This document shows positions 21,723 through 50,718 of a stretch of 61,002 nt of DNA, in pieces. The position numbers were made by a program, and so were the translations under genes. The DNA is from a virus. Position 1 is the first letter of the stretch. Each line of letters begins with the position of its first letter. The stretch covers positions 1 through 61,002 of the IMG/VR virus record IMGVR_UViG_3300010396_000049, one strand, 5' to 3'. The notes under the pieces were generated by a model that was not told where the DNA came from, searched no databases, and worked only from the letters and a program-made list of their open reading frames with translations.

Positions 21723-21757
21723 TAAAAATGCTGCATCAACCATGTTTTGAAAAGGAC
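21723..21757 (-). promoter_or_regulatory. Late promoter, minus strand (tail operon)
   Basis: On the minus strand: GTCCTTTT (21757-21750), 19 nt, CATTTTTA (21730-21723), then 4 nt to the tape measure ATG. Same architecture and spacing as six plus-strand promoters; the only one on this strand. Confidence 0.75.
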
Positions 21758-21858
21758 ACGGCAACCAAATACCCACTAATTGCGGGTTTGAGCAACTTTT
21801 ATACAATAAAATCCATCATAATTAGTTAGTTTAGAGTATCATAAAAATAAAATCTGCT

Positions 21859-22368
21859 TTGAAAGGATATTTCCCTATTGAAATCCCCACCAAAAAATAC
21901 ATAAAGGCGTATATACACGCCCAACTGGGGGAGCAACCCATCATCAACACAGAGCACCGCATCGGCAATAAATTATATGATGTGCTGACGAGGCATAGCA
22001 ATGAAAGAAAAAGTGAATTTCCGGTTTACAATGCGCGCGTAAAAGTTTTCGTGAACCATCACACATTTTATCACCGCGGCGCCAACCTGAATGAAACCAA
22101 CATCAAAAATTTCAACCTCTTTATAGAAGATGAAATAAAAGCTTCGTACCGCATGCTGATGGATTTTTACATTGACCTGCTTCCGTCGTTCGAGGCCAAC
22201 TTGCCTGCAGTACGCAAAAGAATTGGCATAGATTTGGAAGCATGGGATACTGATAGCATCAAAAAAGACTATTACCGCTACCGCAAACGAAACGGCAAAG
22301 CGCTTCTTTATAAAAATAATTACGACCGCGTTATCACGGTTAAAAAATTCCTCGACCCAGGGTTTTAG
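21859..22368 (+). CDS. Hypothetical protein (TTG start)
   Basis: 169 residues, basic, rich in Y, N and K; no domain recognised. The frame opens with TTG and no ATG is available near the N-terminus. It lies alone between the divergent tail promoter and the head genes. Confidence 0.6.
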   Translation: MKGYFPIEIPTKKYIKAYIHAQLGEQPIINTEHRIGNKLYDVLTRHSNERKSEFPVYNARVKVFVNHHTFYHRGANLNETNIKNFNLFIEDEIKASYRMLMDFYIDLLPSFEANLPAVRKRIGIDLEAWDTDSIKKDYYRYRKRNGKALLYKNNYDRVITVKKFLDPGF

Positions 22369-22448
22369 CGTTAAATTAAAAAAAACTAAATCTTTGCCCG
22401 AAGTGTCCCATCGGTAGGTTTCCCTGATATTCCTTCTAATTTTACATC

Positions 22449-23003
22449 ATGAAACAAGTTTATGCAGACCTCGCTTACCTCCAGGAGCCACACTCCGCCG
22501 GATTATGTTCGCTACAGGTAACGCCGCGCGAATGGCTCGCCAGCGATCCTGTTATAGATTTTGAAAGCGGGCGCGTAATGCAAACGATTCCTTTGCAGGC
22601 CGGAAAATTTTGGCTGGGCATGCAATTAACCCAGGGAAGCTATTATTATTTAGAAACGCCCAAAAACGATAAGGCCGGAGATTCTTATGTAGTAACAGCG
22701 GGCGGGCTTTTGAACACATTCAATTACCAGTTTCAGCAAGTGTTGGAAACCATGAAACAAAGCGAGTTGGTAGCAGTACTAACAGACAGGAACAAACGTA
22801 AAAAAATAATCGGCGACACAGCCGGTGGATTAAAAATGGTTGTTACCCATTCTCATAAAAATAATCCCGGCGAAGAAAAACTATCTATAGACTTCACTTA
22901 CCAATGTGAAGGCCTTCCTCCTTATTATAATCCGGATAACACACCCGATGGCATTGGCAACTTCCTTATTAATGCTAATGGTGATTTCCTTTTAATAGGT
23001 TAA
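22449..23003 (+). CDS. Hypothetical virion-associated protein
   Basis: 184 residues, strand-rich, no signal peptide. The position just before the maturation protease suggests a head-tail or tail protein. A TAATTTTA box ends 4 nt before the ATG, the geometry of the late promoters, but a good GTCCTTTT box is missing. Confidence 0.55.
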   Translation: MKQVYADLAYLQEPHSAGLCSLQVTPREWLASDPVIDFESGRVMQTIPLQAGKFWLGMQLTQGSYYYLETPKNDKAGDSYVVTAGGLLNTFNYQFQQVLETMKQSELVAVLTDRNKRKKIIGDTAGGLKMVVTHSHKNNPGEEKLSIDFTYQCEGLPPYYNPDNTPDGIGNFLINANGDFLLIG

Positions 23004-23027
23004 AAACCTCGTTACCCCCTCTATTCA

Positions 23028-23062
23028 GTCCTTTTGATTTGGCTTGCGCCGATACATTTTTG
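23028..23062 (+). promoter_or_regulatory. Late promoter (head operon)
   Basis: GTCCTTTT (23028-23035), 19 nt, CATTTTTG (23055-23062). The protease ATG follows after 13 nt. Confidence 0.75.
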
Positions 23063-23075
23063 TAATCCTAAACCT

Positions 23076-24272
23076 ATGGAAAACAAAAAATCTTATATCG
23101 GAATTAAAAATTCTGTTGATGACTCAACCCTTGAGTTGTTTTTTACCGACTATATTTTCGACGGCTTTGACTGGAACACATTTGAAGCAACCAATATGGT
23201 GCAGGATATGATTGATAAAATCAAAGCTGCTAATCCGTCAAAAATAAAAGTAACCATCAATTCATTAGGCGGCGACGTTATGATCGGGCTTGCCATTTAC
23301 AATTTCCTCAAAAATTATAACGCAAAAGTCCAGGTAGAAATCATCGGATTTGCGGCTTCCATCGCTTCTATTATTGCGATGAGCGCAAGCAAAGGGAAAT
23401 TGATGATTGCTAAAAACGGTTTCATGATCATTCATGCGGCTTCTTCATTTGCCGCTGGAAATGCAAAAGAATTAAGAGACCAGGCAGAAGTGCTTGATAA
23501 AATCTCAACTGAAATGGCAGACATCTATGCGCTTCGCTCAGGCAAAGACGCTAAATATTTTACCGACTTATGGGCAGATGGTGGCGATGTATGGCTCACC
23601 GGCGCGGAAGCGAAGGAAATGGGCCTTGCAGACGAACTGATTAATGCCACTGCCATGACCGCCAAACTCAATCTTGAAGATTTCGGCTATAAAAATATTC
23701 CTAAAAAAATTACTTCATCAATCATTCAAAACCAAAAATTAAATATGGCTTTCAAAAAAACTATTGCCGCCTCCAAAGCTGAGAGCTTTGCCGTGGTAGA
23801 TGGCGGATTTCTTTTAGAAGAAACCCAGCTTAATAATATCGAAAACGCTTTGACTGTAGCAGAAACCGCCGCCGGCGAAGCTGCTGCCACCTTAGCCAGC
23901 GTGAATGCTTCTTTGGAAGAAAAGAACGCTTCGCTCGTAGCGCTTACTGAAGAAGTAGCAGCTCAAAAAAAGATTGCAGAAACATTGACTGCTGAAAAAG
24001 CAGCCGCTGCACAAAAATTAACTGAAACAGAAACTGCACACGCAACCGCTTTAGCAGCTAAAGATGAAAAGATTGCTTCGTTGGAAGCTGAAGTAGTAAC
24101 GCTCGGAAAAAAACCAAGCGGTACCGGCTCTGCAGTAGTTTCCACAGAAGATGAAAAACCGGAAGAAGCTGCAACAGGCAAACCTGGTTTACTGGACGCT
24201 GAGCATCCGCTCAATAAATATGCGGCTAATAAAATTGCCAACGCAGCCAAAACGCACAAATCAAAAATCTAA
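23076..24272 (+). CDS. ClpP-type prohead protease fused to scaffold
   Basis: 398 residues from MENKKSYIGI. Residues 1-210 are a ClpP/SppA-like serine protease: INSLGGDV, the nucleophile Ser at about 95 in GFAASIAS, and His at about 120 in FMIIHAAS. Residues 224-398 form an Ala/Glu-rich coiled coil with a charged tail, as in fused scaffold domains. It would cleave scaffold and capsid during head maturation. A frame extending back to 23034 is rejected because it covers the promoter. Confidence 0.9.
   Translation: MENKKSYIGIKNSVDDSTLELFFTDYIFDGFDWNTFEATNMVQDMIDKIKAANPSKIKVTINSLGGDVMIGLAIYNFLKNYNAKVQVEIIGFAASIASIIAMSASKGKLMIAKNGFMIIHAASSFAAGNAKELRDQAEVLDKISTEMADIYALRSGKDAKYFTDLWADGGDVWLTGAEAKEMGLADELINATAMTAKLNLEDFGYKNIPKKITSSIIQNQKLNMAFKKTIAASKAESFAVVDGGFLLEETQLNNIENALTVAETAAGEAAATLASVNASLEEKNASLVALTEEVAAQKKIAETLTAEKAAAAQKLTETETAHATALAAKDEKIASLEAEVVTLGKKPSGTGSAVVSTEDEKPEEAATGKPGLLDAEHPLNKYAANKIANAAKTHKSKI
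23745..24272 (+). CDS. Nested scaffold protein (internal start)
   Basis: 175 residues, in frame with the protease, starting MAFKKTIAAS. The DNA just before this ATG (AACCAAAAATTAAAT) looks like the A-rich leaders of independent genes in this genome, unlike ordinary coding DNA. Lambda C/Nu3 uses the same design. Inferred. Confidence 0.5.
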   Translation: MAFKKTIAASKAESFAVVDGGFLLEETQLNNIENALTVAETAAGEAAATLASVNASLEEKNASLVALTEEVAAQKKIAETLTAEKAAAAQKLTETETAHATALAAKDEKIASLEAEVVTLGKKPSGTGSAVVSTEDEKPEEAATGKPGLLDAEHPLNKYAANKIANAAKTHKSKI

Positions 24273-24325
24273 ATCCTAATTCAAAATTTATAAATCCTTA
24301 ATCCCAAATCCTAATTCCTAAAAAA
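24270..24325 (+). repeat. Period-7 tandem repeat (AAATCCT type)
   Basis: About seven imperfect units (AAATCCT, AATTCAA, TAATCCC, AATTCCT) between the protease and capsid genes. Confidence 0.7.
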
Positions 24326-24335
24326 ACCCAAACCT

Positions 24336-25325
24336 ATGGACACCAATAAAATTACCCTGGAAATTGATGACGTTGTTGAAGCATGGGGCGACTATTACCT
24401 CAATAGTGGCCAGAACATGGACAACCTGCACCAACTTCCTTTTGAAGCTAGCGATACACAAACAGGCGGAACTGTTATAGAAACAGACCAAACCGTATTG
24501 CGCGAAGCCAATGTAGAAACTGATGAAGTACTACAGCCCTTCCAGATAGATTTTACCAGCAAAGGCGGTGTTACCATCTTGCCGGTTGAAATCAAATTGC
24601 AGAACATCAAAATAGATGTTGGAGTTACTCCACATACTTTGATCAATGCCTGGACTGGTTTTTTAACCAACAGCGGCAACGACCCATTAACCTATCCTTT
24701 CATCCAGTGGCTTACTCAAAATTACCTTATCGCTAAGGCGAAAGAAGATTTTGAATTGAAAGCAATCTATACCGGTGTGCATGCCGCACCAACTGACGGC
24801 ACAGCAGGAGCTGCTACCGCAGTAATTGACGGTATCGAAAAAATCCAGAATGACCTGGTAGCTGCCAGCAAAGTGGATCCGTTCACTCTCGGCAATGTAG
24901 CAGGAATGAGCGACGAGGCATTTGTAACCGCAGTAGAAACCAGTTTCGCACAGGCTATCCCTGAGAAATACAGGTATAACTACGAAATGGAGCTGAGCAT
25001 GAGCCGTAGCTTAAGGGATAAATTCCGCAGAGGAATGAGAACCAAATACAACGTGAACTACCAGCAAACCGACATGCTGAACAGGTTGATGGATTACGAA
25101 AACATCACCGTGGTAGGGCGCGCCAGCATGACCGGCAAAAACCGTATCTGGACTACACCTAAGTTTAACCTGTACTTACCTGTAAAAGGGTTCAGCAACA
25201 AGAACGTCTTCGACGTTCAGAAACAGGACAGGAAGGTGAAATTCCTTACTGACTGGTGGCAGGGCGTAGGTTTTGTTCAACCAGAACTCGTGTTCATGAG
25301 CGAAGCTGAAGTACCGGAATCTTAA
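24336..25325 (+). CDS. Major capsid protein
   Basis: 329 residues. The position directly after the protease/scaffold gene, the size, and a long alternating strand/helix layout support the major capsid protein with an HK97-type fold. No cleavage site or delta domain can be defined by eye. The assignment rests mainly on context. Confidence 0.75.
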   Translation: MDTNKITLEIDDVVEAWGDYYLNSGQNMDNLHQLPFEASDTQTGGTVIETDQTVLREANVETDEVLQPFQIDFTSKGGVTILPVEIKLQNIKIDVGVTPHTLINAWTGFLTNSGNDPLTYPFIQWLTQNYLIAKAKEDFELKAIYTGVHAAPTDGTAGAATAVIDGIEKIQNDLVAASKVDPFTLGNVAGMSDEAFVTAVETSFAQAIPEKYRYNYEMELSMSRSLRDKFRRGMRTKYNVNYQQTDMLNRLMDYENITVVGRASMTGKNRIWTTPKFNLYLPVKGFSNKNVFDVQKQDRKVKFLTDWWQGVGFVQPELVFMSEAEVPES

Positions 25326-25328
25326 AAT

Positions 25329-25368
25329 AACCTCACCTCCGTCCCCTCTCCGAGGGAGAGGGGGGAAG
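25329..25368 (+). repeat. Palindromic intergenic element, copy 2
   Basis: Begins CCTCACCTCCGTCCCCTCTC and pairs with GAGAGGGGGGA; located just after the capsid stop. Confidence 0.75.
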
Positions 25369-25394
25369 GCATAAAACGATAACCGCCAAACCCA

Positions 25395-25419
25395 ACCCTC
25401 CCGATGTAATCGGGAGGGT
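25395..25419. other. Perfect 11-bp hairpin
   Basis: ACCCTCCCGAT (25395-25405), 3-nt loop, ATCGGGAGGGT (25409-25419). No U-tract, so it could attenuate or protect an mRNA end rather than terminate. Confidence 0.65.
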
Positions 25420-25444
25420 AGAGGATGGCACAAAACAAAAATTC

Positions 25445-25861
25445 ATGGGAGAAACAAAAACAGAAACACCGACAACAGCAGAGGAACTGCAAACGATTAT
25501 TGCAGAACGCGATGCCACTATCGAGGCACAAAATGCAACGATAGCAGAACAGGAAAAAACCATCACTGGCCAGGAAAACACCATTGCTGACCAGGGCGAA
25601 ACGCTGTCAAAGCAAGCCGCCATCATTAAGCAATTGCAAGCCGGAAAACCGGAAGTAAAAACAGCTGCGCCGGTGGCTAAGAAAAAACCTGAATTGCCGA
25701 AAGAACCGGTAGAAGTGGATGGAAAAAAATACCGTTTCCGTTTCGCGGCCTTTTATTTTAAAGCAGTACGTTACGAAGCACAGGATGCAGCTCTAGATGA
25801 AAAACTTCTGAAAGAGATCCTGGCTGTAGAAGGGCAAATGATTCTAATCGAAATTTTTTAA
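25445..25861 (+). CDS. Coiled-coil head-associated protein
   Basis: 138 residues. Residues 12-70 are a regular coiled coil with repeated (E/D)xTIxxQ motifs; a Pro/Lys linker and a compact C-terminal domain follow. It could be a head decoration or completion protein. No family recognised. Confidence 0.6.
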   Translation: MGETKTETPTTAEELQTIIAERDATIEAQNATIAEQEKTITGQENTIADQGETLSKQAAIIKQLQAGKPEVKTAAPVAKKKPELPKEPVEVDGKKYRFRFAAFYFKAVRYEAQDAALDEKLLKEILAVEGQMILIEIF

Positions 25862-25921
25862 ACTCAAAAACATCTTTTCTCAAAACCCAATCCTTATCCA
25901 AAAATCTTAAAACAATATCCT

Positions 25922-26482
25922 ATGGATTATTCACTCATTAGAAACCAGCGTGCCTGGAGCAATTCCGATAGCGGCATTGCCTCACATGCCTTAATTGCCC
26001 CTGTCTCATTTTTTGTGCCCGACACCGGGTTGAAAAATCCTGTAGCACCATTCAATACGGCAGGCGATGGCATTACCATAAAAACCCCGCATGAATTTAA
26101 TGCAGGCAAAGGCTTCATTTATTTTGCCCTGGCTCCTCAAAAGAATTCCTTGACGGCGCCTATCAGTGGCGACCTTGGTTTTTATAAACAAAACCAAACC
26201 GCTACCATTTTCATTCCCGGAAGCAACCCTGCGATTCATGAAACTTACCAGAGTTTGGTAAATGTTCCCCTGATCGTGTTGGTAAAAGATACTAATGTCT
26301 GCACGCTGAAACAATACCTGCAGCTCGGTACCTCTTGCGAACCGGCATTCCTTGGCGGAAGCTTCGACACTGGTACTACCAAAGACGGCGTTAAAGGCTT
26401 CAATGTACAGGTAAGCTACGACGGCCCTATTCAGTACTACATCGTAGATGATGGCCCGGAAATTTTAGCTGACGAAAGTTAA
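25922..26482 (+). CDS. Hypothetical virion protein
   Basis: 186 residues, strand-rich and Gly/Pro-rich, no signal peptide or catalytic motif. Possibly a tail tube or head protein by position, last of the head block. Confidence 0.55.
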   Translation: MDYSLIRNQRAWSNSDSGIASHALIAPVSFFVPDTGLKNPVAPFNTAGDGITIKTPHEFNAGKGFIYFALAPQKNSLTAPISGDLGFYKQNQTATIFIPGSNPAIHETYQSLVNVPLIVLVKDTNVCTLKQYLQLGTSCEPAFLGGSFDTGTTKDGVKGFNVQVSYDGPIQYYIVDDGPEILADES

Positions 26483-26484
26483 CC

Positions 26485-26530
26485 TGAAAGCTGAAGGCTA
26501 AAAGCTTAAAGCCAAAAGCTTAAACTTTAA
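26485..26530 (+). repeat. Period-7 tandem repeat (AAAAGCT type)
   Basis: Six imperfect units (GAAAGCT, GAAGGCT, AAAAGCT, TAAAGCC) just upstream of a terminator. Confidence 0.75.
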
Positions 26531-26544
26531 GTATAAAAAAAATA

Positions 26545-26571
26545 AAGGCTGGTTGCAATACCGGCCTTTTT
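26545..26571 (+). terminator. Rho-independent terminator after the head operon
   Basis: AAGGCTGG (26545-26552), 8-nt loop, CCGGCCTT (26561-26568), then a T-run. One G-T pair in the stem. Confidence 0.75.
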
Positions 26572-33392: not shown

Positions 33393-33427
33393 GTCCTTTC
33401 TCAGGCGCACGCCTCGCCTTATACTTG
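33393..33427 (+). promoter_or_regulatory. Late promoter (terminase operon)
   Basis: GTCCTTTC (33393-33400), 19 nt, TATACTTG (33420-33427), 5 nt to ATG. Confidence 0.75.
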
Positions 33428-33432
33428 CATCT

Positions 33433-34215
33433 ATGATGCTCGATTTAATACGCCAATGGCTCAACAGCAAAAAAGATTATGATACCGGTGTGGCCATCTA
33501 TAGTCAAAACAACCCGGATGGAAAATTGCTGGCCGTGCTTCGCAATGGGGAGAATGATTTTAGAAGAAAACGCCTGCTGGATGAAATCCTGGTTATTTAT
33601 AAAAATCTTTCTGCGTTCCCTGCAGAGGCGATTGCACCTGGTGCAAAAAAAATAGCGTCAAACGCCAATAAAGTGGCAAGTGCTGCCAATAAAATTCAGG
33701 AAACCGAAATAAAATATTCCCAAAAAGAGGCGAAAAATATTCCTGCTGTAGCCGAACAAGAGCAAACGCCTGCCAATAAAGAACTCTACGACGCCTGCAA
33801 GCTGGCGGCAGATACCGAATACAAAAAAGTGATGAACGCCCGGGCGGTGCTTTTTAAAAAAGCCAGCCCCGATAGTTTTATTGATGTTAATAAACCGGAC
33901 CTGATTTTTGACCGTGGGGAATTAGCCATTGAAATTTTGCAAGGTTGGAAAAAAGTTTCTGAGCTATACGACAGAGCAGAATTTGTAAAAGAAAGCGGGC
34001 GCCTTCCATCCACTCCGGAAAGCGAACGCCCGGAGAATGAATATGAGCACATTCCTGATAGCCTGGTAAAACAGCAACTCGACAACGCCCGCAAAGCTTA
34101 CAACAAGCTGAAGAAAAAAACATCCACTCCGGAGAGGGTGGCGCTATTGCAAAAGCACGAAGCCAACATTAAAAAATTAAAAGAGAAATGGGATTCGTTA
34201 CAACCAAAACAGTAA
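33433..34215 (+). CDS. Hypothetical protein, first gene of the terminase operon
   Basis: 260 residues; Ala/Lys-rich central linker, helical C-terminus. No domain recognised. Overlaps the next gene by 28 nt. It may take part in packaging, but this rests only on position. Confidence 0.6.
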   Translation: MMLDLIRQWLNSKKDYDTGVAIYSQNNPDGKLLAVLRNGENDFRRKRLLDEILVIYKNLSAFPAEAIAPGAKKIASNANKVASAANKIQETEIKYSQKEAKNIPAVAEQEQTPANKELYDACKLAADTEYKKVMNARAVLFKKASPDSFIDVNKPDLIFDRGELAIEILQGWKKVSELYDRAEFVKESGRLPSTPESERPENEYEHIPDSLVKQQLDNARKAYNKLKKKTSTPERVALLQKHEANIKKLKEKWDSLQPKQ

Positions 34216-35043: not shown

Positions 35044-35690
35044 AAGAAGATGTAAAAAATGCGCTGCAGAAGCGCGCGGAAGAAGTAAACCGGCAGGCAG
35101 AATTTATCCTGGCTAAAACCCGCGATTGGCAAGTGATAAAACAATACATGAGCAATCGGGTTGCGGATATTGAACTGACACCTGAGCAGCAAAAGAAAAT
35201 GGAGCGGTACCAGTTTATTTATAATGAATTAGTAGGAGGCAAGAGCACTGATCAGCAGGTAGTGAACCTGGCGAAGAATTTCTTTAAAGTTTCTATTGCT
35301 CAGGCGTATGAAGATATCAAAGCAGCTAAGGAAGTTTTTACAGATGTTATTGACTTCGATAAACTTTTCGACCTAAATCTTTCGCTGCAGCTCAATACAA
35401 AATATAAAGCTAAAGCAGAAGAGATGGGAGACCTGAAAGCTCTGGCTATGTTTGAAAAAAACAGGAATGAGTTAAGAAAACAACTTCCGGATAAAGACGA
35501 TACTGATGTTGATCTGTTTAAAGGCCATATTTATGAAATGGTGTTTGACCCGAGCCTTTTAGGCGCGCCTACTAAAGTAGATATGAAAGAAATATTGACG
35601 GCCATTAATGCTAAACGAGGCAAGGCAATAAAACTGGATATGTTTGAAGAATTAAATTACGAAGACGTTCCGGAAGATGACAGTAATTAA
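35040..35690 (+). CDS. Probable terminase small subunit or packaging accessory
   Basis: 216 residues, mostly helical, with no HTH that I can name. ATGA overlap upstream and a 14-nt overlap with the large terminase gene point to a packaging complex partner. Confidence 0.55.
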   Translation: MKEDVKNALQKRAEEVNRQAEFILAKTRDWQVIKQYMSNRVADIELTPEQQKKMERYQFIYNELVGGKSTDQQVVNLAKNFFKVSIAQAYEDIKAAKEVFTDVIDFDKLFDLNLSLQLNTKYKAKAEEMGDLKALAMFEKNRNELRKQLPDKDDTDVDLFKGHIYEMVFDPSLLGAPTKVDMKEILTAINAKRGKAIKLDMFEELNYEDVPEDDSN

Positions 35691-37314
35691 AAAGCATTTT
35701 AATAAACCGCAGTTGCGTAGCATGGCAATTGATGCACCGACAGAAATAGCGGTGATGGGAAGAGGTACCGGTAAAACCGTAGGGATCCTTGCAAGAAAAT
35801 CAGCACAAAGATATTTTGGTACGATGCCCCGTGGAACCGGTGTGATATTGGGAGCCACTTATACGCAATTAGTATCGAGGACGCTTCCGGAATTGATTAA
35901 AGGTTATCAAATGCTGGGCTATGAAATGGACCATCATTTTGTTTTTGGAAAAAGGCCGACTGAAAAGTGGATGAAGAAATGGAAATGGAAGCAACCTTAC
36001 GCACCGCCTCTTGATTATAAATATGTGCTATCCTGGTGGAACAGCGCAGTTGCTAAATTGGTTAGCCAGGAAAGGCCCGGATCTTCAAACGGAATTTCAA
36101 TCGACTGGATTATCGGCGATGAGCTGAAGTACATCAATGAGCAAAAAATGAATACTGAATTGCTGCCCGCTAACCGGGGCATCATTCCGGAATTCAAAGG
36201 AAATATTTATCATCATGGAATGACCTTCACCACCGATATGCCGGTGGGCACCGGTGGCCGCTGGATTCTTGACAGAGAAAAAAAGATGGACCGGGATAAG
36301 GTGAATCAAATTTGGGAGATTCAAACAGTTAAGTTCCAACTAAACCATCTCCTGAAAAAAGAAACAAGGAAAGTTTTTCAGCAGGAATTGAAAAAACAGA
36401 TAGACGTACTCGAGGATGAAATGAATGATCTGAGACGTGGATTGTTATATTACCATGAAGCAAGCACGTTGGATAACATTCATGCGCTGGGTGCGGATTA
36501 TATTAAGCAACAATTGCGTGATACATCCGCTTTTCAGTTTGACACTCAAATATTAAACCTCAGGCCATTGAGATTGGAGGATGGATTCTATCCGGACTTT
36601 GATGAAGAGCTGCACGGCTACTTTGCAGAGAATGAAGATTACTTCAATAACCTGGAATATGACCCATTTAATATAGAACTTGATTGCAGGAAGGATAAGG
36701 ATTTGGATTCTAAAGCTCCACTGCATATCGCCTTGGATTATAATAGACGGATATGGCCGATCGTCACAGGGCAGGTTACAAAGAAAGAGATTCGGACCAT
36801 TAAAGGGGTTCATGTGTTGTATCCGCTCAAATTAAAAGATGCAGTACAGAAGTGGTGTGATTATTATAAGCCACATAAGAGGAGGCTGGTTTACTATTGG
36901 TACGATCATACAGCAGTAGGCGATATGCATGACACCCGGATGTGTGATGACGTGGTGGCGATATTGCGGAAGAATAAATTTGTGGTTCTCGAAATGTATA
37001 TTAGCCAACAACCAGGCCATGAAGAAAGGTACAGGATGTGGGGCGATCTATTAACCAATAGCGGCAAGTATGAGCAGTCTTATAAGATCAATCGTGAGAA
37101 CTGTGATAAGTTGATATTATCTAAGTGCCTGGCAGAAGCTGAGCAAAGGAAAGATGGCTTTGGTAAGAGTAAGAAGACAGAGCATGACCCTAAGTTCCCT
37201 GCAGATGAAAGTACGCACTACTCAGATGCGGAAGATACGTGGGTGTTTGGAGTGTTGGAGTCAGGGTTGTACAAAGGCTATGAAGATAAAGGAACAGGAG
37301 GTTTTATAATGTAG
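35677..37314 (+). CDS. terL: Terminase large subunit
   Basis: 545 residues. Walker A GRGTGKT at about 28-34, Walker B IDWIIGDEL with Asp/Glu at about 148-149. The C-terminal nuclease region has LHIALDYNRR as a probable first metal-binding strand and later DESTHYSDAEDTW. It packages DNA into the prohead using ATP. Confidence 0.92.
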   Translation: MTVIKKHFNKPQLRSMAIDAPTEIAVMGRGTGKTVGILARKSAQRYFGTMPRGTGVILGATYTQLVSRTLPELIKGYQMLGYEMDHHFVFGKRPTEKWMKKWKWKQPYAPPLDYKYVLSWWNSAVAKLVSQERPGSSNGISIDWIIGDELKYINEQKMNTELLPANRGIIPEFKGNIYHHGMTFTTDMPVGTGGRWILDREKKMDRDKVNQIWEIQTVKFQLNHLLKKETRKVFQQELKKQIDVLEDEMNDLRRGLLYYHEASTLDNIHALGADYIKQQLRDTSAFQFDTQILNLRPLRLEDGFYPDFDEELHGYFAENEDYFNNLEYDPFNIELDCRKDKDLDSKAPLHIALDYNRRIWPIVTGQVTKKEIRTIKGVHVLYPLKLKDAVQKWCDYYKPHKRRLVYYWYDHTAVGDMHDTRMCDDVVAILRKNKFVVLEMYISQQPGHEERYRMWGDLLTNSGKYEQSYKINRENCDKLILSKCLAEAEQRKDGFGKSKKTEHDPKFPADESTHYSDAEDTWVFGVLESGLYKGYEDKGTGGFIM

Positions 37315-40140: not shown

Positions 40141-40175
40141 GTCCTTTTCCTCCCGCCCCCCTCTCTCTAAATTCA
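40141..40175 (+). promoter_or_regulatory. Late promoter (portal operon)
   Basis: GTCCTTTT (40141-40148), 19 nt, TAAATTCA (40168-40175), 4 nt to ATG. Confidence 0.7.
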
Positions 40176-40179: not shown

Positions 40180-40497
40180 ATGAATTTAAAAAGGGCAGTA
40201 GAAATCATTGATGGCGGCGCCAGGCTAAAGAGCATCCGCTTCATTACCGCCGATATAAATAAAGGCAAAGGCGGCGAAGTAATTGAATTGCTCAATTGCA
40301 GGCTATCGCGCAAAGCTGACGCTCAACAGTCAACCGTCAACCGCGAACCATCAACCGCGAACGGCCAACCGTCAACCATCAACCGCGCACCCAACCACCA
40401 CTACCATTTCACCCGCAACCTTCTCCTGCCTAATAATCAAATCAGGAAAGTACACCCGCTTCTCGTAACCCATTTAAACCAGGAGGAAGTAATATGA
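40180..40497 (+). CDS. Hypothetical protein with a period-7 insert
   Basis: 105 residues. Residues about 48-70 are seven-residue repeats (STVNREP, STANGQP, STINRAP) read from nine heptanucleotide units (40322-40395). A compact N-terminal region precedes the insert, and a His/Asn-rich tail follows. First gene of the portal operon, overlapping the portal gene by 4 nt. Confidence 0.6.
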   Translation: MNLKRAVEIIDGGARLKSIRFITADINKGKGGEVIELLNCRLSRKADAQQSTVNREPSTANGQPSTINRAPNHHYHFTRNLLLPNNQIRKVHPLLVTHLNQEEVI

Positions 40498-41954
40498 GCG
40501 TAACCATGGACGGCCCGGTAGCCTACCTGTCGGATAGCAAAAGTGCGGTTTACTTCTCCCGCGTAAATGCCAAAGCCGGCACTTACCAGGGCAAGAAAGG
40601 CGCAAAAGGCACCGCGCTACCCATACAGCAGCTTCAAAACGAGCTCGGCGTAGCCTTTTGGGGCGAAGACAACCGCTTTCCCCAAAATATAGAACAGCAA
40701 ATGGCGTATTGCGGCGTGGGTAAAGCCGGGCTGGATTGGAAAGCAAGGATGCTCTATGGCAACGGAATTATTCCCGGAAAAATTACCGATATCAAAGAAG
40801 ACGGTAGCGAAGTATTTACGCCTCTTAAAAGGGATGGCGCCGGCAAAGCTATTTATGATATCATTGAGCAGCGCTCCATGTTTCGTTTCTGGATGGAATT
40901 TTTACAGGATTGGTCCTGGTTTGGAAATTGTTTCCCTGAAATTATTTTTTCTAAAGATTGCACCAATATCACCGGCTTTGTTCACCAGGAAAGCTGCGAC
41001 AGCCGTTTTCAACAGATGGCTGATGATGGAAGTTTTTCTAAGGTTTACTTATCTAAAATGTGGGGCGCCAGCTCTGACCAATATGCAAAGTTCGACCCAA
41101 AGAAAAGAGTGCTTGGCCTCATAGACAATCCCAAGCTGGTGGATATGATTGATAAAAAATTCCTGAAAACGCTTGATTGTATTGATATGTACGATGCGCT
41201 AAACAGCGCTAAAGATATTGCTGACAGATTAAAAGGAAGCAAAGGTTTAAAATCTGCCACCCTTCCTGTCAATTATCCGAGCGTCAACAAAACCTATTAC
41301 CAGGTACCCACGTGGGATGGCGCGCGCCTCGCCGGCTGGGTAGAGATTGCCTCTAAAATTCCATCCCTCATAAAAACACTTTTTGCCAAAGCCTTTTCCA
41401 TTCGCTACCATATTGAAATTCCTAAAACTTATTTCGAAGACAAATTCGGCGCGGAAGTATGGGAAGGAATGACAGAACCCCAAAAGACAAAAGCAAAAAA
41501 AGATTTGTTGCAGGAAATGGATAAATTTTTATCCGGCTCCGAAAATGCTTTCAGGTCCTTCGTCTCTTATTTCGACGTGGCCAGGATGGGAAAAGAAGAA
41601 TATGGCCGCGTTAAAATCACCAATATCCCGGACAATTCTAACCTGGATAAAGAAATGATCACCCAGTCCGCAGCCGATTCACAAATCCTCGTTGCCATGG
41701 GCGTTAACCCATCACTCAGCGGCGCCGGAAAAATTGGTACCGGCCAGCAACGCAGTGGCGGCAGTGATCTCGTAGAAAATTATTTGATTTACTGTGCAGG
41801 CTTGAATTTGGAACGGCAGGTATTCCTTGAGCCGCTCTATCTCATGCGCGATTTCAACAAATGGGATTCTGATATCATTTTTCGTGTACGCGACACCGTA
41901 GTAAATAATATTTCCGCCGGCGACAAACCCACCACTAAAAAAACTGTAAACTAA
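40494..41954 (+). CDS. Portal protein
   Basis: 486 residues. Size, position and segments such as GLDWKARMLYGNGI, FLQDWSWFGNCFPE and VAMGVNPSLSGAGKIGTG fit a phage portal: the last resembles the conserved crown/wing region. It forms the dodecameric DNA channel that binds terminase. Unusually for this phage an AGGAGG lies 8 nt upstream of the start. Confidence 0.8.
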   Translation: MSVTMDGPVAYLSDSKSAVYFSRVNAKAGTYQGKKGAKGTALPIQQLQNELGVAFWGEDNRFPQNIEQQMAYCGVGKAGLDWKARMLYGNGIIPGKITDIKEDGSEVFTPLKRDGAGKAIYDIIEQRSMFRFWMEFLQDWSWFGNCFPEIIFSKDCTNITGFVHQESCDSRFQQMADDGSFSKVYLSKMWGASSDQYAKFDPKKRVLGLIDNPKLVDMIDKKFLKTLDCIDMYDALNSAKDIADRLKGSKGLKSATLPVNYPSVNKTYYQVPTWDGARLAGWVEIASKIPSLIKTLFAKAFSIRYHIEIPKTYFEDKFGAEVWEGMTEPQKTKAKKDLLQEMDKFLSGSENAFRSFVSYFDVARMGKEEYGRVKITNIPDNSNLDKEMITQSAADSQILVAMGVNPSLSGAGKIGTGQQRSGGSDLVENYLIYCAGLNLERQVFLEPLYLMRDFNKWDSDIIFRVRDTVVNNISAGDKPTTKKTVN

Positions 41955-45312: not shown

Positions 45313-46248
45313 ATGAATATAATTAAGACAGGAAGCAAGGTTTTAACGGTCGGCAACCATTTTATGCAGTTTGGGCGCACGCTTGCGTTTTTGAATGCAC
45401 AAAGTCCTATCACGACTGCGCAAGGGGGCTTTAGCTCCCCATTGTCCATTGCCATTGATTCGGCAAACGGTAGAATATTCGTAAGCAATAGCAACACAAT
45501 TTCTATTTTAGATTATACCAACCCAGCAGCAGGAAGCCCAACGGTAATTACACAATCAATGGGCTCGTTCAGCACAATTAGGGGCATAGCCATAGATGCA
45601 GCCAATAACAGAATATTTGTTTGTAACCAAGGAAACAACACCGTTTCAATTTTAAATTATACCAACCCAACGGCAGGAAGCCCAACGGTAATTAGTACAT
45701 CGCAGGGTAGCTTTAGCGCGCCTTACGGCATAGCCATAGATGCAGCCAATAACAGAATATTTGTTTGTAACCAAGGAAACAACACCGTTTCAATTTTAAA
45801 TTATACCAACCCAACAGCAGGAAGCCCAACGGTAGTTAGTACATCACAGGGTAGCTTTAATCAAATTGGGAGCATAGCCATAGATGCGGCCAATAACAGA
45901 ATTTTTGTTTGTAACCAAGGAAACAACACCGTTTCAATTTTAAATTATACCAACCCAACGGCAGGAAGCCCAACGGTAATTAGTACATCGCAGGGTAGCT
46001 TTAGTATATGTTCGTTTATCGCCATAGATGCAGCCAATAACAGAATATTTGTTTCTAACTACGGAAACAACACCGTTTCAATTTTAAATTATACCAACCC
46101 AACGGCAGGAAGCCCAACGGTAATTAGTACATCGCAGGGTAGCTTTAGCGGGCCTTTTGGCATCGCCTTAGACGCAGCCAATAGCAGAATATTTGTTTCT
46201 AATTACGGCAGCAACACCGTTTCAATCATCACAAACATTTTCACATAA
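45313..46248 (+). CDS. Six-bladed NHL/YVTN-like beta-propeller protein
   Basis: 311 residues. About six repeats of 42-43 residues, each with IAIDAANNRIFV, QGNNTVSILNYTN and AGSPTVISTSQGSF. The DNA repeats (about 126-129 bp) are nearly identical, so unequal recombination could change blade number. No signal peptide; probably a tail-tip or receptor-recognition partner of the fibre. Confidence 0.8.
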   Translation: MNIIKTGSKVLTVGNHFMQFGRTLAFLNAQSPITTAQGGFSSPLSIAIDSANGRIFVSNSNTISILDYTNPAAGSPTVITQSMGSFSTIRGIAIDAANNRIFVCNQGNNTVSILNYTNPTAGSPTVISTSQGSFSAPYGIAIDAANNRIFVCNQGNNTVSILNYTNPTAGSPTVVSTSQGSFNQIGSIAIDAANNRIFVCNQGNNTVSILNYTNPTAGSPTVISTSQGSFSICSFIAIDAANNRIFVSNYGNNTVSILNYTNPTAGSPTVISTSQGSFSGPFGIALDAANSRIFVSNYGSNTVSIITNIFT

Positions 46249-46646
46249 TGACACTACAATTCTCCAACACACACATATTTTTTGCCCTCGAAGCCATCTG
46301 GGCGAACCTGGATTATAAATTTAAAAATGTAATTAACCAGCTTATAACGGCAAATAATGACGATAACTTTATGCAGTCACTCGAGATTTCGGAGGATATT
46401 TTAATACAAATATTCTCAACCGTTACCGTACTACCTGAAGGCGTGGCGGCTTCGATGAATGCCGAAATGCTCGCCGCTTTATCGCCACAAATAGCCGAAT
46501 TAAGCAATATCGCCGATGTACAGGCAGGCACCGCCGAGCCAAACGAATCCGCGAGGATTCAAATTGCGATAAATGATATTGATGTGGCAAACAAAGCAGT
46601 AAAAGCTGCAAAGATTTTAAACGGTAAAAATAAAATATTGGCATAA
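46248..46646 (+). CDS. Hypothetical protein downstream of the propeller gene
   Basis: 132 residues, helical, Ala-rich. Start overlaps the previous stop by 1 nt. May be a fibre assembly chaperone, by position only. Confidence 0.55.
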   Translation: MTLQFSNTHIFFALEAIWANLDYKFKNVINQLITANNDDNFMQSLEISEDILIQIFSTVTVLPEGVAASMNAEMLAALSPQIAELSNIADVQAGTAEPNESARIQIAINDIDVANKAVKAAKILNGKNKILA

Positions 46647-46712
46647 CTCACAACTCCTAACTCATAACTCACAACTCCTCACTCATCACTCCTCACTCCT
46701 AACTCATAACTC
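46644..46712 (+). repeat. Period-7 tandem repeat (TAACTCA)
   Basis: About nine units before the gene at 46717. Confidence 0.85.
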
Positions 46713-46716
46713 AAAA

Positions 46717-47115
46717 ATGAACCTCCTCCTCTATCTTATCTCATTCCTCCTCCGAACCCTCTTCGTCACAATAGGCATCATCTACGATATCTGTAAGATC
46801 TTCCGCTATTCCCATTTCGACAGGTCTTTCAAATACATCAATCAAAAATACAGGCGCCTCGCCATCCTGGTTGACCAGTTCGGCAACGCCGCCTGCCCGG
46901 AATTCTGGAACGATATCTTAATAAAAAAAGAAAGCGCCCACCCCTTTGGTATCTTAAATCAAACCATCAGCGCCGTCCTGGGATTAAATTACCAGGCCGG
47001 CACACTTACCAAAACAGGCCTATGGCTCAATAACGCCCTGAACTTCTTCTGGAAAGGCCATACCATCAAGGCTGCGGAGGAAATTAATGCCATTTCAATA
47101 TGTAACACCGGGTAG
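46717..47115 (+). CDS. Hypothetical membrane-associated protein
   Basis: 132 residues; N-terminal membrane helix (LLLYLISFLLRTLFVTIGII), then a compact region. No family recognised. Confidence 0.6.
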   Translation: MNLLLYLISFLLRTLFVTIGIIYDICKIFRYSHFDRSFKYINQKYRRLAILVDQFGNAACPEFWNDILIKKESAHPFGILNQTISAVLGLNYQAGTLTKTGLWLNNALNFFWKGHTIKAAEEINAISICNTG

Positions 47116-47151
47116 CAGGTATGAAATAAATTGTATAAAAAATGTAAAATA

Positions 47152-47237
47152 AAGTAGCAAAAATGCTACTTCATTATTAGTATGTATTACATTTGTCTTA
47201 CGATTATCTTATAAATAGTATGCTAATTATAAGATAA
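47152..47237. other. Two inverted repeats in the 47116-47305 gap
   Basis: AAGTAGCA/TGCTACTT (47152-47159 with 47164-47171) and TTATCTTATAA/TTATAAGATAA (47204-47214 with 47227-47237). Both perfect. They may end the rightward or leftward transcripts. Confidence 0.55.
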
Positions 47238-47262
47238 AAAACCCCATCTGTCACGGATGGGG
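47235..47262 (-). terminator. Terminator for the minus-strand RNA
   Basis: Read on the minus strand: CCCCATC, 7-nt loop, GATGGGG, then T-run (47241-47235). It lies downstream of the tRNA-like gene. Confidence 0.75.
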
Positions 47263-47305
47263 CGAAATTTAAGGGTATGGAGCCCTTGTTTTTACTTGAA
47301 TAAAA

Positions 47306-47375
47306 TGGACCCTGCCGGAATCGAACCAGCCTCACACGCTTGACTAGGGCAGAGAGGTCAACCAGATCAGGGCCC
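47306..47375 (-). tRNA. tRNA-like RNA with unusual anticodon arm
   Basis: On the minus strand the 7-bp acceptor GGGCCCT/AGGGTCC (47375-47369 with 47313-47307) and the T arm GCTGG-TTCGATT-CCGGC are complete, with discriminator A and no encoded CCA. The middle 38 nt do not give a standard D and anticodon arm: the best helix TTGAC/GTCAA leaves a 12-nt loop CTCTCTGCCCTA. Followed by a hairpin and terminator, so probably transcribed. Amino acid identity cannot be assigned. Confidence 0.5.
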
Positions 47376-47385
47376 GCAATTACTT

Positions 47386-47425
47386 AAACCGTTTGGCGAT
47401 AATTCGTTGAACGGTTTTTTATTTT
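47386..47425 (+). terminator. Possible plus-strand terminator
   Basis: AAACCGTT/AACGGTTT (47386-47393 with 47410-47417) then T-rich. The loop is 16 nt, so it is weak. The remainder up to 47612 shows nothing convincing. Confidence 0.4.
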
Positions 47426-47612
47426 GCAATATTAAACCAAAATTTTAGGTTTAAATTAATGGGAAGGCCTTAAACCCTACCAACCAAAACTAAATTCTTT
47501 TTCACTGAAACCAATGAAGAAAATATCAACAAAAAAAGGATAACTTTTTCTAGGTATTATCTACAATCAAAAATATCCCACCACAGCCAGCTTTTTGCAA
47601 CTTTACATGCCT

Positions 47613-47685
47613 CCCACTCATAACTCATAACTCATCACTCATAACTCAAAACTCATCACTCATAACTCATAACTCCTAACTCATA
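47613..47685 (+). repeat. Period-7 tandem repeat (TAACTCA)
   Basis: About ten units just upstream of the lysis-operon promoter. Confidence 0.85.
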
Positions 47686-47692
47686 AAAGGCT

Positions 47693-47727
47693 GTCCTTTT
47701 ACTCTCCGCCCCCATTTCCCATTTTTG
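47693..47727 (+). promoter_or_regulatory. Late promoter (lysis operon)
   Basis: GTCCTTTT (47693-47700), 19 nt, CATTTTTG (47720-47727). Confidence 0.75.
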
Positions 47728-47753
47728 TTCTAAACAACCAATGAAAGAACCGA

Positions 47754-48068
47754 ATGCTCAAGCCAATCTTAAAATACATCGGGCAGCTAAAAACTGCCGA
47801 ACAAAGATTATTGGTCATTCTCCTTTTATCAGCGGTCATAGTTCTTTTTTCCTTGCTGCTGTCAGCTAACAAAAGCGCCGCTTACGAAGACAAGCGCCAG
47901 ATAGAAATATTGCAGCATACGCTTGATTCGACCAGCCGTGCCGACCGCAAAGAGTTAGATGCCTGCAAGGATCAAAACTTTCGCGACAAATTAGACCGTA
48001 TAGCAGAGCTTGAAAAATATGCGCATCAGCAAGATTCTTTAATCGAACAATTAAGAAAAATAAAATGA
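47754..48068 (+). CDS. Membrane-anchored coiled-coil protein (spanin-like?)
   Basis: 104 residues; one membrane helix at about 17-38 (LLVILLLSAVIVLFSLLLSA), then a periplasmic coiled coil. Position before holin, lipoprotein and endolysin suggests an inner-membrane spanin-type or holin accessory. Overlaps the next gene by 4 nt. Confidence 0.55.
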   Translation: MLKPILKYIGQLKTAEQRLLVILLLSAVIVLFSLLLSANKSAAYEDKRQIEILQHTLDSTSRADRKELDACKDQNFRDKLDRIAELEKYAHQQDSLIEQLRKIK

Positions 48069-48490
48069 AAAACCTCTTTATAATATTAATCCTGTCCGTT
48101 TTCATCTTTTGGCCTCAGGTGCAGGGCCCCGCGCAGCCTACTTCCCCCACTTCTTCAGGAGACGGGATGAAGCTGGCTCGTTCGAAGGATTCCATTGCTC
48201 ATCTCAATAAAAAAATAGAATCAAAATTTGACAGCATCACTTCAGAGATCAACCGCATTAAGAACCGGCCTGCCCGATATATAACGCGCACGCACATACG
48301 CAAAGTGAACCATTACCGCATAGACACGGTGCTTGTATTTATTGATACCTGCTTTAACCAGCCACAGATAGATACAGCTTATTTAATGCCTGAAATAAAA
48401 CCGGAACCCCCGAAAAGAACCTGGTTAAAAAGGCTTTTACACCACAAAAAAAAACCACGCGAAAATTATTTAAAAATAGTTGAGCAATAA
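48065..48490 (+). CDS. Secreted or anchored lysis-region protein
   Basis: 141 residues; N-terminal hydrophobic signal (LFIILILSVFIFWPQVQG), then a coiled region and a basic C-terminus. No family recognised. Confidence 0.55.
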   Translation: MKNLFIILILSVFIFWPQVQGPAQPTSPTSSGDGMKLARSKDSIAHLNKKIESKFDSITSEINRIKNRPARYITRTHIRKVNHYRIDTVLVFIDTCFNQPQIDTAYLMPEIKPEPPKRTWLKRLLHHKKKPRENYLKIVEQ

Positions 48491-48566
48491 CTCATCACTC
48501 ATCACTCATCACTCATAACTCATAACCCATAACTCATACCTCCTAACTCATCACTCCTAACTCCAA
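48487..48566 (+). repeat. Period-7 tandem repeat (TAACTCA)
   Basis: About eleven units before the holin gene. Confidence 0.85.
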
Positions 48567-48571
48567 AAAAA

Positions 48572-48814
48572 ATGCTTAAAGAATTAAAAGAAAGATACCA
48601 CGCGGAAACGCCGGTCTGGTTTAAAAAAATACGGAGAGCCAGCCTCGCTTTATCAGGGCTTGGCGTCTCTTTGTTAACCCTCAGCGCCACGGTAAACAGT
48701 TTCGTTTTGCCTGACTTTTTACATACGCTTTGCACCTGGTTTGTAATTGCCGGCACAAGCGTCGCAGCCGTCAGCACCACCGCAAAAAAAGATCCTAATG
48801 AAAAAGATATTTAA
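48572..48814 (+). CDS. Holin-like protein
   Basis: 80 residues; two membrane helices (about 25-45 and 49-70) with a short turn and charged ends. Next to lipoprotein and endolysin genes. Would time release of the endolysin. Confidence 0.7.
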   Translation: MLKELKERYHAETPVWFKKIRRASLALSGLGVSLLTLSATVNSFVLPDFLHTLCTWFVIAGTSVAAVSTTAKKDPNEKDI

Positions 48815-49352
48815 CCTTAGGCCTTCTGCCTTCTGCTTTCTGCTTTCAGCGTTTTGCCTGCTGCTTTTCACTTTATGTAGCTGCTCCTCGTCAAAAAAGG
48901 CAGTAAATATCAACAAGGCCCACACCGACAGCAGCGTCGTTGAGCACGCGCAAAAAAACTTTTCTTCTATCAAAGACAGCATCAGCACCAGGACAGCCAA
49001 TTTTAATTATAAAAAGGAAATAAAAAACACCATGCAGCCTGTTGTAATTGATAACGATGATTCTGTTCCCCCGGGCATTGTGGTTATTACCAATAAGAAA
49101 ACCGGGGGAAAAAAAATTTTTCTCCCGTCCAAAACGATTACCGAATGGGGCAATATTGCTGCCAGCGATCAGGTTCAACTGAGGCAAAAAGTAGATTCTT
49201 CAGTAAACCAACAAAAAAGCACAAATCTTATTTCCGAAAAAAAAACAATCGTAAAACAAAAGGAAAAATCAGGCCTCAGTTTTTTTAACCTGCTTTGGCT
49301 TCTCCTGCTAATACCCGCTTATATAATCTATAAAAAAATTAAGAACCTATGA
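48798..49352 (+). CDS. Lipoprotein with C-terminal membrane helix
   Basis: 184 residues from MKKIFNLRPS. The lipobox LCSCS follows a signal peptide built of a seven-residue repeat (SAFCFLL, SAFCLLL) that comes from heptanucleotide repeats in the DNA (48820-48866). A C-terminal segment (FFNLLWLLLLIPAYIIY) is a second membrane helix. A single protein with both anchors is suggestive of a unimolecular spanin. A longer frame from 48747 is rejected. Confidence 0.65.
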   Translation: MKKIFNLRPSAFCFLLSAFCLLLFTLCSCSSSKKAVNINKAHTDSSVVEHAQKNFSSIKDSISTRTANFNYKKEIKNTMQPVVIDNDDSVPPGIVVITNKKTGGKKIFLPSKTITEWGNIAASDQVQLRQKVDSSVNQQKSTNLISEKKTIVKQKEKSGLSFFNLLWLLLLIPAYIIYKKIKNL

Positions 49353-49930
49353 CACCGCAACAGCAGCACCAGCAGCTTTTTGATACGCTTGAAATCCTTC
49401 CGCAAATAACAAAAGGAAATTCGATAATCATTAGCAACGTCCCGGCCATCATCGAAAGAAAAGTGGCAACTATGCGAAGCAACAAAAACCGCTACGAAGA
49501 AGTATCCCACCGCTTTGTCAATCCCGGGTTAAAATGGTGGCTCGTAGCGCTTATTCATGAAATGGAATGTACTCAGAATTTTAATTGTTACCTGGGCAAT
49601 GGCCAGCCTCTGAATAAAAAAACAACTATCGTTCCTGCAGGCCGCGGCCCATTTGCCACGTTCGCCGATGGTGCCGTAGACGCCTTAAAATTGCAACGCG
49701 CTGATCAGATAACAGACTGGAGCCTAGGCAACGTTCTGTATTTTCTCGAAGGATATAACGGTTATGGTTATTCTAAATATCACAATATTAATTCACCATA
49801 CCTGTGGAGCGGTTCTAATCACTATATTTCTGGCAAATATGTTTCTGATGGAAACTATGATCCTGATGCCGTCAGTTCCCAAATTGGCATTGCCCTTTTA
49901 ATGAAAAGTTTGCTACAACAAGGCGCATAA
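49349..49930 (+). CDS. Endolysin (muramidase-like)
   Basis: 193 residues. WWLVALIHEMECTQNF holds a candidate catalytic Glu (about 71), NGQPLNKKTTIVPAGRGPF and NINSPYLWSGSNHYISGKY then DGNYDPDAVSSQIG are hallmark blocks of this lysozyme family. No signal peptide, so it needs the holin. Overlaps the lipoprotein gene by 4 nt. Confidence 0.88.
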   Translation: MTPQQQHQQLFDTLEILPQITKGNSIIISNVPAIIERKVATMRSNKNRYEEVSHRFVNPGLKWWLVALIHEMECTQNFNCYLGNGQPLNKKTTIVPAGRGPFATFADGAVDALKLQRADQITDWSLGNVLYFLEGYNGYGYSKYHNINSPYLWSGSNHYISGKYVSDGNYDPDAVSSQIGIALLMKSLLQQGA

Positions 49931-49973
49931 TGAGATTATCATTAACCAAATAAAAACCCTATAAACTCATAAA

Positions 49974-50075
49974 ATGAAAAAAATTTTAGAAAACACATTA
50001 GCCTACATGACGCTTGCTTACCTGTTGGCTATAATTGCCGCAATAGTGTATTGTATTTCGCAGGCTAAATTGTAA
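49974..50075 (+). CDS. Small membrane peptide
   Basis: 33 residues, one membrane helix (TLAYLLAIIAAIVYCI). Follows the endolysin with a typical leader. May modulate holin action. Confidence 0.5.
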   Translation: MKKILENTLAYMTLAYLLAIIAAIVYCISQAKL

Positions 50076-50156
50076 AAGTTAGTTGGATTTTTCTTCGAAT
50101 ATACGGCGCTGTGTTTCCACACTGGCGCCTTCTCTTTTATCTATCCATGCTTTTAT

Positions 50157-50223
50157 CAACTCATAACCCATAACCCATAACTCATAACTCAAAACTCCTA
50201 ACTCATAACTCCTAACTCATAAA
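50157..50223 (+). repeat. Period-7 tandem repeat (TAACTCA)
   Basis: About nine units just upstream of a late promoter. Confidence 0.85.
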
Positions 50224-50228
50224 AGGCT

Positions 50229-50263
50229 GTCCTTTTACTTCAAACCAAAATAAACCATTTTTA
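50229..50263 (+). promoter_or_regulatory. Late promoter for a short transcript
   Basis: GTCCTTTT (50229-50236), 19 nt, CATTTTTA (50256-50263). 4 nt later begins a six-codon open frame (50268-50288), and a strong terminator follows at 50371. Confidence 0.7.
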
Positions 50264-50267
50264 TTCT

Positions 50268-50396
50268 ATGAAACCTAATTTAAAATAACCCCAAAGCCAT
50301 TTCCTCCTTTTCACCTGGCTTTAATAAATGTTTTTCCCTATGAAAAACAGGTGACTCATCCACACCAATCGCCCCGGTATCTACCGGGGCTTTTTT
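50268..50396 (+). ncRNA. Short late transcript with six-residue open frame
   Basis: Bounded by the late promoter and the terminator, about 130 nt. The open frame MKPNLK is at the start. Could be a small RNA, a micro-peptide message, or an attenuator for the downstream gene. Confidence 0.45.
50371..50396 (+). terminator. Rho-independent terminator
   Basis: GCCCCGG-TATCTA-CCGGGGC followed by six T. Very strong. Confidence 0.92.
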
Positions 50397-50442
50397 CCGG
50401 CCGGTACCGCAGGCCAGGCCGGTAAAAATAAAAACCACGCAA

Positions 50443-50604
50443 ATGAAATACCAAATTACTTTTTACTATCACAGCGACCCGCATAAACTAACCCATCTCA
50501 AAACCATCTCCGCAAAAAATTACGGCGATGCTTACAACAAATTCTTTGACGAAATAAAGGAGCAGGTATTTTTGTTGGAGATACATGAAGAAACAAATCT
50601 TTAA
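50443..50604 (+). CDS. Small hypothetical protein
   Basis: 53 residues from MKYQITFYYH, with a typical leader (ACCACGCAA). Just after the terminator; no domain recognised. Confidence 0.5.
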   Translation: MKYQITFYYHSDPHKLTHLKTISAKNYGDAYNKFFDEIKEQVFLLEIHEETNL

Positions 50605-50672
50605 CTCATACCTCATACCTCATAACTCATAACTCATAACTCATAACTCATAACTCCTAACTCATAACTCCT
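50602..50672 (+). repeat. Period-7 tandem repeat (TAACTCA)
   Basis: About ten units, starting in the stop codon of the previous gene. Confidence 0.85.
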
Positions 50673-50683
50673 AATTTCCCCCT

Positions 50684-50718
50684 GTCCTTTTGCCGCCACT
50701 CCGCTAACGCTACTTTAG
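50684..50718 (+). promoter_or_regulatory. Late promoter (tail-completion operon)
   Basis: GTCCTTTT (50684-50691), 19 nt, TACTTTAG (50711-50718), 4 nt to the GTG start. Confidence 0.7.

Follow-up and report, generated by a model that had tools for sequence, protein, structure and literature searches.

At the middle promoters of phage T4, a MotA box at -30 is combined with the host -10 element in what is known as sigma appropriation, while late activators encoded beside late genes include Mor and C of phage Mu, Ogr of P2, proteins of the ArpU/RinA type and lambda Q; the sites of Mor and C are dyads, and Q is an antiterminator. Late gene control in Bacteroidota phages is, as far as the literature we searched goes, largely undescribed, and that search returned nothing relevant on a GTCCTTTT promoter, on Bacteroidota phage late promoters or on leaderless phage genes. 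Here we describe a predicted class of late promoter, built from a GTC box and a second box 19 nt downstream, in an IMG/VR virus record of 61,002 bases (IMGVR_UViG_3300010396_000049; the window, by which we mean the whole stretch analysed), together with a candidate regulator encoded at 21859-22368. No near relative of the window was found in INPHARED when a 12-kb stretch of it was compared.

The word GTCCTTT[TC] occurs seven times in the window, always between genes and each time followed after exactly 19 nt by [CT]AnnnTnn, so that every site listed in the original prediction is present with the spacing claimed for it. By itself GTCCTTTY is not enriched (7 occurrences in the window, and 4.6 on average over 200 dinucleotide shuffles of it); the word together with the second box at 19 nt is found 7 times against a shuffle mean of 0.1 and a maximum of 2, a result at odds with the notion that the motif is equally frequent in random sequence. 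Spacings from 8 to 31 other than 19 give 0 or 1 match each, and the sole further copy of GTCCTTT, GTCCTTTA at 1179 on the minus strand, lacks a good second box. A weight matrix built without the window, its training set being 60 sites in other phages, places exactly these seven sites first, with scores of 27.3 to 15.3 and a clear gap to the next at 8.8, which is the outcome of the fixed-spacing scan that had been proposed as a check. These sites almost certainly belong to a single class of late phage promoters.

In Flavobacterium johnsoniae the -7 box lies at -12 to -5 and is followed by 4-5 nt to the transcription start, T-12 is nearly invariant, and transcripts mostly carry leaders, 87% of them over 10 nt (PMC6847099). 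Because of that 4-5 nt distance we take offset 39 from the start of the GTC box as the predicted +1; on the same scale the TTTT of GTCCTTTT falls at -35 to -32, the register of the host -33 element. So aligned, the predicted promoters of the window are as follows.

21723-21757, minus strand: late promoter GTCCTTTT-N19-CATTTTTA; the ATG of the tape measure gene (17528-21718) lies exactly on the predicted +1 (21718)
23028-23062, plus strand: first late promoter after the proposed regulator, GTCCTTTT-N19-CATTTTTG; the ATG of the head maturation protease is at 23076, giving a short leader
33393-33427, plus strand: late promoter GTCCTTTC-N19-TATACTTG; the ATG of 33433-34215 is one nt past the predicted +1, and the site leads to the TerL block
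40141-40175, plus strand: late promoter GTCCTTTT-N19-TAAATTCA; the ATG of 40180-40497 is on the predicted +1, and the portal gene (40494-41954) follows
47693-47727, plus strand: late promoter GTCCTTTT-N19-CATTTTTG, upstream of a probable lysis cassette (47754-49930, assigned by eye)
50229-50263, plus strand: promoter GTCCTTTT-N19-CATTTTTA; the ATG at +1 opens only MKPNLK and a stop, a six-codon open reading frame (ORF)
50684-50718, plus strand: late promoter GTCCTTTT-N19-TACTTTAG; the GTG of 50723-51619, a gene with no assigned function, is on the predicted +1

The claim that all seven precede structural, packaging or lysis genes thus holds for most of them and fails for two, the site at 50684, whose gene has no assigned function, and that at 50229, which has only the six-codon ORF and then a terminator.

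The same arrangement recurs beyond the window, in dozens of further phage contigs as well as in relatives. A search with the portal protein recovered five relatives at 55-62% identity, all of which carry the motif, including copies shortly before the portal block and shortly before the orthologue of 33433; relatives also have a site at the place equivalent to the 23028 promoter, and the equivalent of the 40141 promoter is kept in G1, G2, G3, G4 and G5. Further phages were added by searches with TerL and with the family of the 21859-22368 product (hereafter the 21859 family); the head protease as a query found no loci. A logo of 109 GTCCTTT[TAC] sites from the relatives and the window, in whose selection the second box played no part, places clear information only in TGTCCTTT[T/A], including the T ahead of GTCC, in a box 19 nt downstream, and in an ATG at offset 39-41, the start codon standing 4-5 nt past the -7-like box. 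In the relatives a spacing of 19 yields 36 matches with a strict second box and 53 with a looser one, any other spacing at most 2 or 4, respectively. A scan of viral contigs for TGTCCTTTT-N19-CANTTTTG returned at least 119 stretches; many of the listed stretches hold several sites in one orientation, on contigs of 33 to 65% GC, and those with a single site may be chance. Among cultured phages, Polaribacter phage Leef_1 has six GTCCTTTT sites (at 470, 1809, 2476, 10521, 30639 and 34591) together with a homologue of the candidate regulator, gp39. The proposal of a single late-promoter class whose -33 element is unlike the host TTTG is borne out.

How these sites relate to host promoters can be read from the 109 unselected examples. 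The host -33 element TTTG is absent, GTCCTTT[T/A/C] standing in its register, whereas the host -7 element TAnnTTTG is present in relaxed form (A-11 in 83%, T-8 in 72%, T-7 in 87%, and G-5 in 58% with A in 28%), the main relaxation being at -12, where C is as frequent as T. The earlier idea that a GTCCTTT-type box replaces TTTG is therefore right in that TTTG is not there, and is refined in that the last four bases of the box occupy the register of the host -33 element, with a -7 box that keeps its host character. Of 206 unique sites, 85 have a start codon at offset 39 that opens a frame of 30 codons or more, while each other offset accounts for about 3; in the window this is so for the sites at 21757, 40141 and 50684, and to within one nt for that at 33393, the 50229 site having the six-codon ORF only. 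In Leef_1 the starts deposited at NCBI place gp05 and gp46 at the predicted +1 and gp02 two nt later. Because start codon and predicted +1 coincide so often, many of the late mRNAs are predicted to be leaderless. At sites without a start codon at +1, a leader hairpin sought as a general feature was absent, strong folds occurring in 10% against 13% in shuffles. Neither the coincidence of start codon and +1 nor how broad the family is had been remarked in the original prediction.

The candidate regulator is encoded between the early and late blocks.

21859-22368, plus strand: proposed late regulator of 169 aa with a TTG start, a family member between the early and late blocks and upstream of the first late promoter
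22449-23003, plus strand: conserved gene with no assigned function between the regulator and the first late promoter, an order kept in G1, G3 and G4

Homologues in G1, G3 and G4 are 49-59% identical over the alignment and occupy the same location, one gene ahead of the first late promoter; a family profile picks up a homologue in those motif-bearing relatives whose sequence includes this region, usually with no gene or one gene between it and the first such promoter. Association was examined from both sides. Starting from the protein alone, we took five remote members in genomes of the same order (Chitinophagales) as a test set: in four (G390, G263, G172 and G099) motif sites adjoin the regulator gene or lie downstream of it, and in G390, G099 and G263 the matches cluster in the prophage, with 3 of 10 genome-wide matches within 17 kb, 4 of 8 within 20 kb and 3 of 8 within 16 kb, respectively. 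A further family match, in G174, was set aside as probably spurious, being partial, in a 518-aa protein and with no motif nearby. Starting from the motif, we counted co-occurrence with the 21859 family in 50 contigs of 25-90 kb: of the 34 contigs that have three sites or more, 30 encode the regulator, as does 1 of the 12 that have one site only (Fisher p = 1.1e-6), and without the five contigs that had given rows to the profile the counts are 26 of 30 and 0 of 11. The cultured Bacteroidota phages 11b, P12024S, P2559S, RAP44 and B124-14 have neither regulator nor motif (5 of 5). We consider it likely that the 21859 family is the cognate factor of the promoter class.

Two divergent phages bear on whether the protein itself reads the box. 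In G19, whose TerL is 37% identical, there is only a remote regulator (8161-8754) and no GTCCTTT promoter; instead we find six GTCATCACGCC[TC]GTCACG-N19-box sites, of which four have their ATG precisely on the predicted +1 and the first comes immediately behind the regulator gene. Flavobacterium phage 6H likewise has a remote regulator and no GTCCTTT promoters, and carries four CATGTCTTAAA-N18-box sites on the late strand (expectation 0.04), one just past the regulator gene and one ahead of an S49 protease gene. Other GTC elements, GTCACG in G19 and GTCTTAAA in 6H, thus stand at the same or nearly the same register. Nothing else speaks more strongly for a reading of the element by the protein than this pairing of a diverged protein with a diverged upstream element and a retained downstream box; the argument rests on these two cases, which were found by looking.

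The 21859 family is a divergent one. Among 48 members of the family, no convincing assignment was obtained in Pfam, PHROG or NCBIfam, and neither sequence nor Foldseek fold comparison revealed a relative among solved structures in the Protein Data Bank. An AlphaFold model of the regulator is confident (pLDDT 89.8, pTM 0.82), and its only significant viral fold match is Leef_1 gp39, annotated as a hypothetical protein, a homologue in both sequence and fold that is 16% identical over the fold alignment. Our guess for a recognition helix is the C-terminal helix KKDYYRYRK. Most close relatives end in a final phenylalanine (GF, AF, TF or PF) after a low-confidence tail, which resembles a short docking tail.

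We propose that the regulator and its homologues would bind the asymmetric GTC box (consensus TGTCCTTT[T/A]), covering the spot where region 4 of the host sigma factor would read the -33 TTTG, and would keep host RNA polymerase carrying sigma-A at a weak -7 box, [C/T]AnnTTTG, at a distance of 19 bp. From that box it would be 4-5 nt to the transcription start, which in a large fraction of promoters would coincide with the first base of the start codon. The asymmetry of the box and its length of 8-9 bases suggest a monomeric reader. Because the regulator gene sits at the early/late junction, soon before the first late promoter, its expression would lead on to that promoter and so to an early-to-late cascade. 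What the sequences themselves show is a promoter class of fixed geometry, conserved and concentrated in phages and prophages, that goes with the regulator family, as well as different GTC-type elements where the regulator is remote (G19 and 6H). From this we infer the binding of the regulator to the box, its role as activator and not as sigma factor, the part played by host sigma-A and the position of the transcription start; the explanation as a whole, including the activator role and the recruitment of host sigma-A, seems to us probable. With somewhat less assurance, we lean on balance towards a broader statement: that a new activator family of unmatched fold usurps the -33 contact of host sigma-A and thereby governs late gene expression in many Bacteroidota phages, has diverged in specificity (GTCCTTT, GTCACG, GTCTTAAA) and drives mRNAs that start at the start codon.

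Several observations weigh against this proposal. By profile, the regulator has no recognised DNA-binding domain. The remaining genome of the test set, G112, has a homologue and no motif site in 40 kb, the gene lying at the contig end. Four contigs with at least three sites (G430, G439, G453 and G470) lack a regulator match, three of them being short (26-31 kb) and perhaps fragments, and the sites of G470 being common to G455, which has the regulator; in G469 the match is weak (2e-4, over part of the protein). Inheritance of a phage module from a common ancestor may also account for part of the co-occurrence, and the single-site contigs may be chance matches in phages of other phyla. Of the divergent cases, G19 has terminator-like hairpins overlapping two of its six sites, and the 6H sites have a spacing of 18 rather than 19 and are not leaderless.

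Were the regulator instead an unrecognised phage sigma factor that reads both boxes and replaces host sigma-A, the rigid spacing would be as expected, and the relaxed -12 position would be accounted for, T-12 being near-invariant in F. johnsoniae (PMC6847099). Against this, none of the 48 members matches a Pfam sigma region 2 or 4 domain, with one weak NCBIfam sigma match (E 0.006) in a single member; the fold matches no solved sigma factor; the rest of the -7 box fits the host consensus; and 169 aa is small for two DNA-reading domains. Since the -7 box retains its host character and the new box spans the -33 contact at a fixed register, we favour an activator and consider a sigma factor improbable. 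It is likewise unlikely that the GTC box is read by some other phage protein (an early helix-turn-helix (HTH), LuxR-like or antirepressor protein) and that the 21859 family, as a virion or packaging protein, merely accompanies the box. The family was indeed chosen partly by position, and the early/late junction is a place where one might also find, say, the gene for the small terminase subunit; yet the family tracks the motif over contigs of 33-65% GC, and its remote members accompany altered boxes. The HTH genes at 7717 and 56552, which the original prediction had singled out as possible activators, are rejected, not being conserved with the motif: the GerE/LuxR type of 7717 occurs in only 1 of 12 motif-bearing relatives besides the window, and 56552 has one weak match in one relative. 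What survives of that proposal is its more general form, binding by a phage activator or an alternative sigma factor, in that a phage-encoded factor is the best reading, with 21859-22368, which it had not named, as the candidate.

A host factor, with GTCCTTTT as the target of a host alternative (extracytoplasmic function) sigma factor or a host activator, is possible in principle for a temperate phage. In eight host assemblies, however, the pattern outside prophages is about at or below the reversed-pattern control, that is, at background, on which ground a host regulon was rejected, and the box changes together with the phage regulator in G19 and 6H; we hold a host factor to be very improbable. 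Less credible still is a non-promoter signal for packaging, recombination or RNA stability, for which no supporting feature was found and against which the fixed distances to the -7 box and start codon, the orientation with genes and the intergenic location all speak.

Genes served by the promoters, and a terminator beyond one of them, complete the map.

23076-24272, plus strand: head maturation protease, served by promoter 23028
35677-37314, plus strand: probable terminase large subunit, with Walker motifs read by eye and no Pfam or PHROG match, in the block served by 33393
40494-41954, plus strand: portal protein, in the block served by 40141
50371-50396, plus strand: intrinsic terminator GCCCCGGTATCTACCGGGGC-TTTTTT, downstream of promoter 50229

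Because its six-codon ORF is followed by this terminator, promoter 50229 may give a late RNA of about 125 nt. Individual promoters have further features. Three of them are immediately preceded by a repeat of the TAACTCATAACTCC type (47663-47692, 50199-50228 and 50610-50675), with 30 identical bases ahead of 47693 and 50229. In the 33393 promoter the 19-nt spacer (33401-33419) holds the palindrome AGGCG-CA-CGCCT; a GGCGCACGCC, GGCGTTCGCC or CGAACGCC spacer element is found in 9 of 11 orthologues of the promoter before 33433 (window, G1, G2, G3, G4, G6, G9, G11 and G12) and in 0 of the other leaderless-type promoters listed, and is perhaps a second element specific to this promoter, possibly an operator. 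Some motif sites overlap or directly precede a terminator-like hairpin with a T run (G001 21474 and 45386; G019 36610 and 41457). The window phage is probably temperate, since a serine recombinase/integrase gene lies at 59483-61000.

A defined class of promoter and a candidate for its regulator are now available, with a cultured phage, Leef_1, in which both can be studied, along with 6H and its variant box. If the proposal is true, it would explain how such phages switch to virion production, make leaderless translation directly testable in a phylum without Shine-Dalgarno sites, and provide tight, phage-specific promoters for Bacteroidota genetics as well as help in setting gene starts in phage annotation.

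Phage late activators with promoter boxes of their own are already known; the 21859 family, its fold and its promoter class were not found in the literature searched. With Mor/C, Ogr, ArpU/RinA and Q the candidate shares the character of a small phage protein at the early/late junction serving late promoters; unlike them, it has an asymmetric target box in a fixed register, and none of their families is among the Pfam, PHROG or NCBIfam matches of the 48 members. To T4 MotA the likeness is one of promoter layout only, a phage activator box in place of the -35 element with the host -10 kept, and we claim no membership: the sites here differ in sequence and host phylum, serve late genes, and go with no MotA-like family match. 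Compared with Bacteroidota sigma-A (sigma-ABfr) promoters (-33 TTTG, -7 TAnnTTTG), the phage sites are alike in register, in a host-like -7 box and in the distance from that box to the start, and differ in GTCCTTT[T/A], a rigid 19-nt spacer, a relaxed -12 position and a frequent start codon at +1. Because the -7 box is host-like and the last four bases of GTCCTTTT fall in the host -33 register, the class resembles a host sigma-A promoter in which another protein has taken over the -33 contact, rather than a wholly new promoter.

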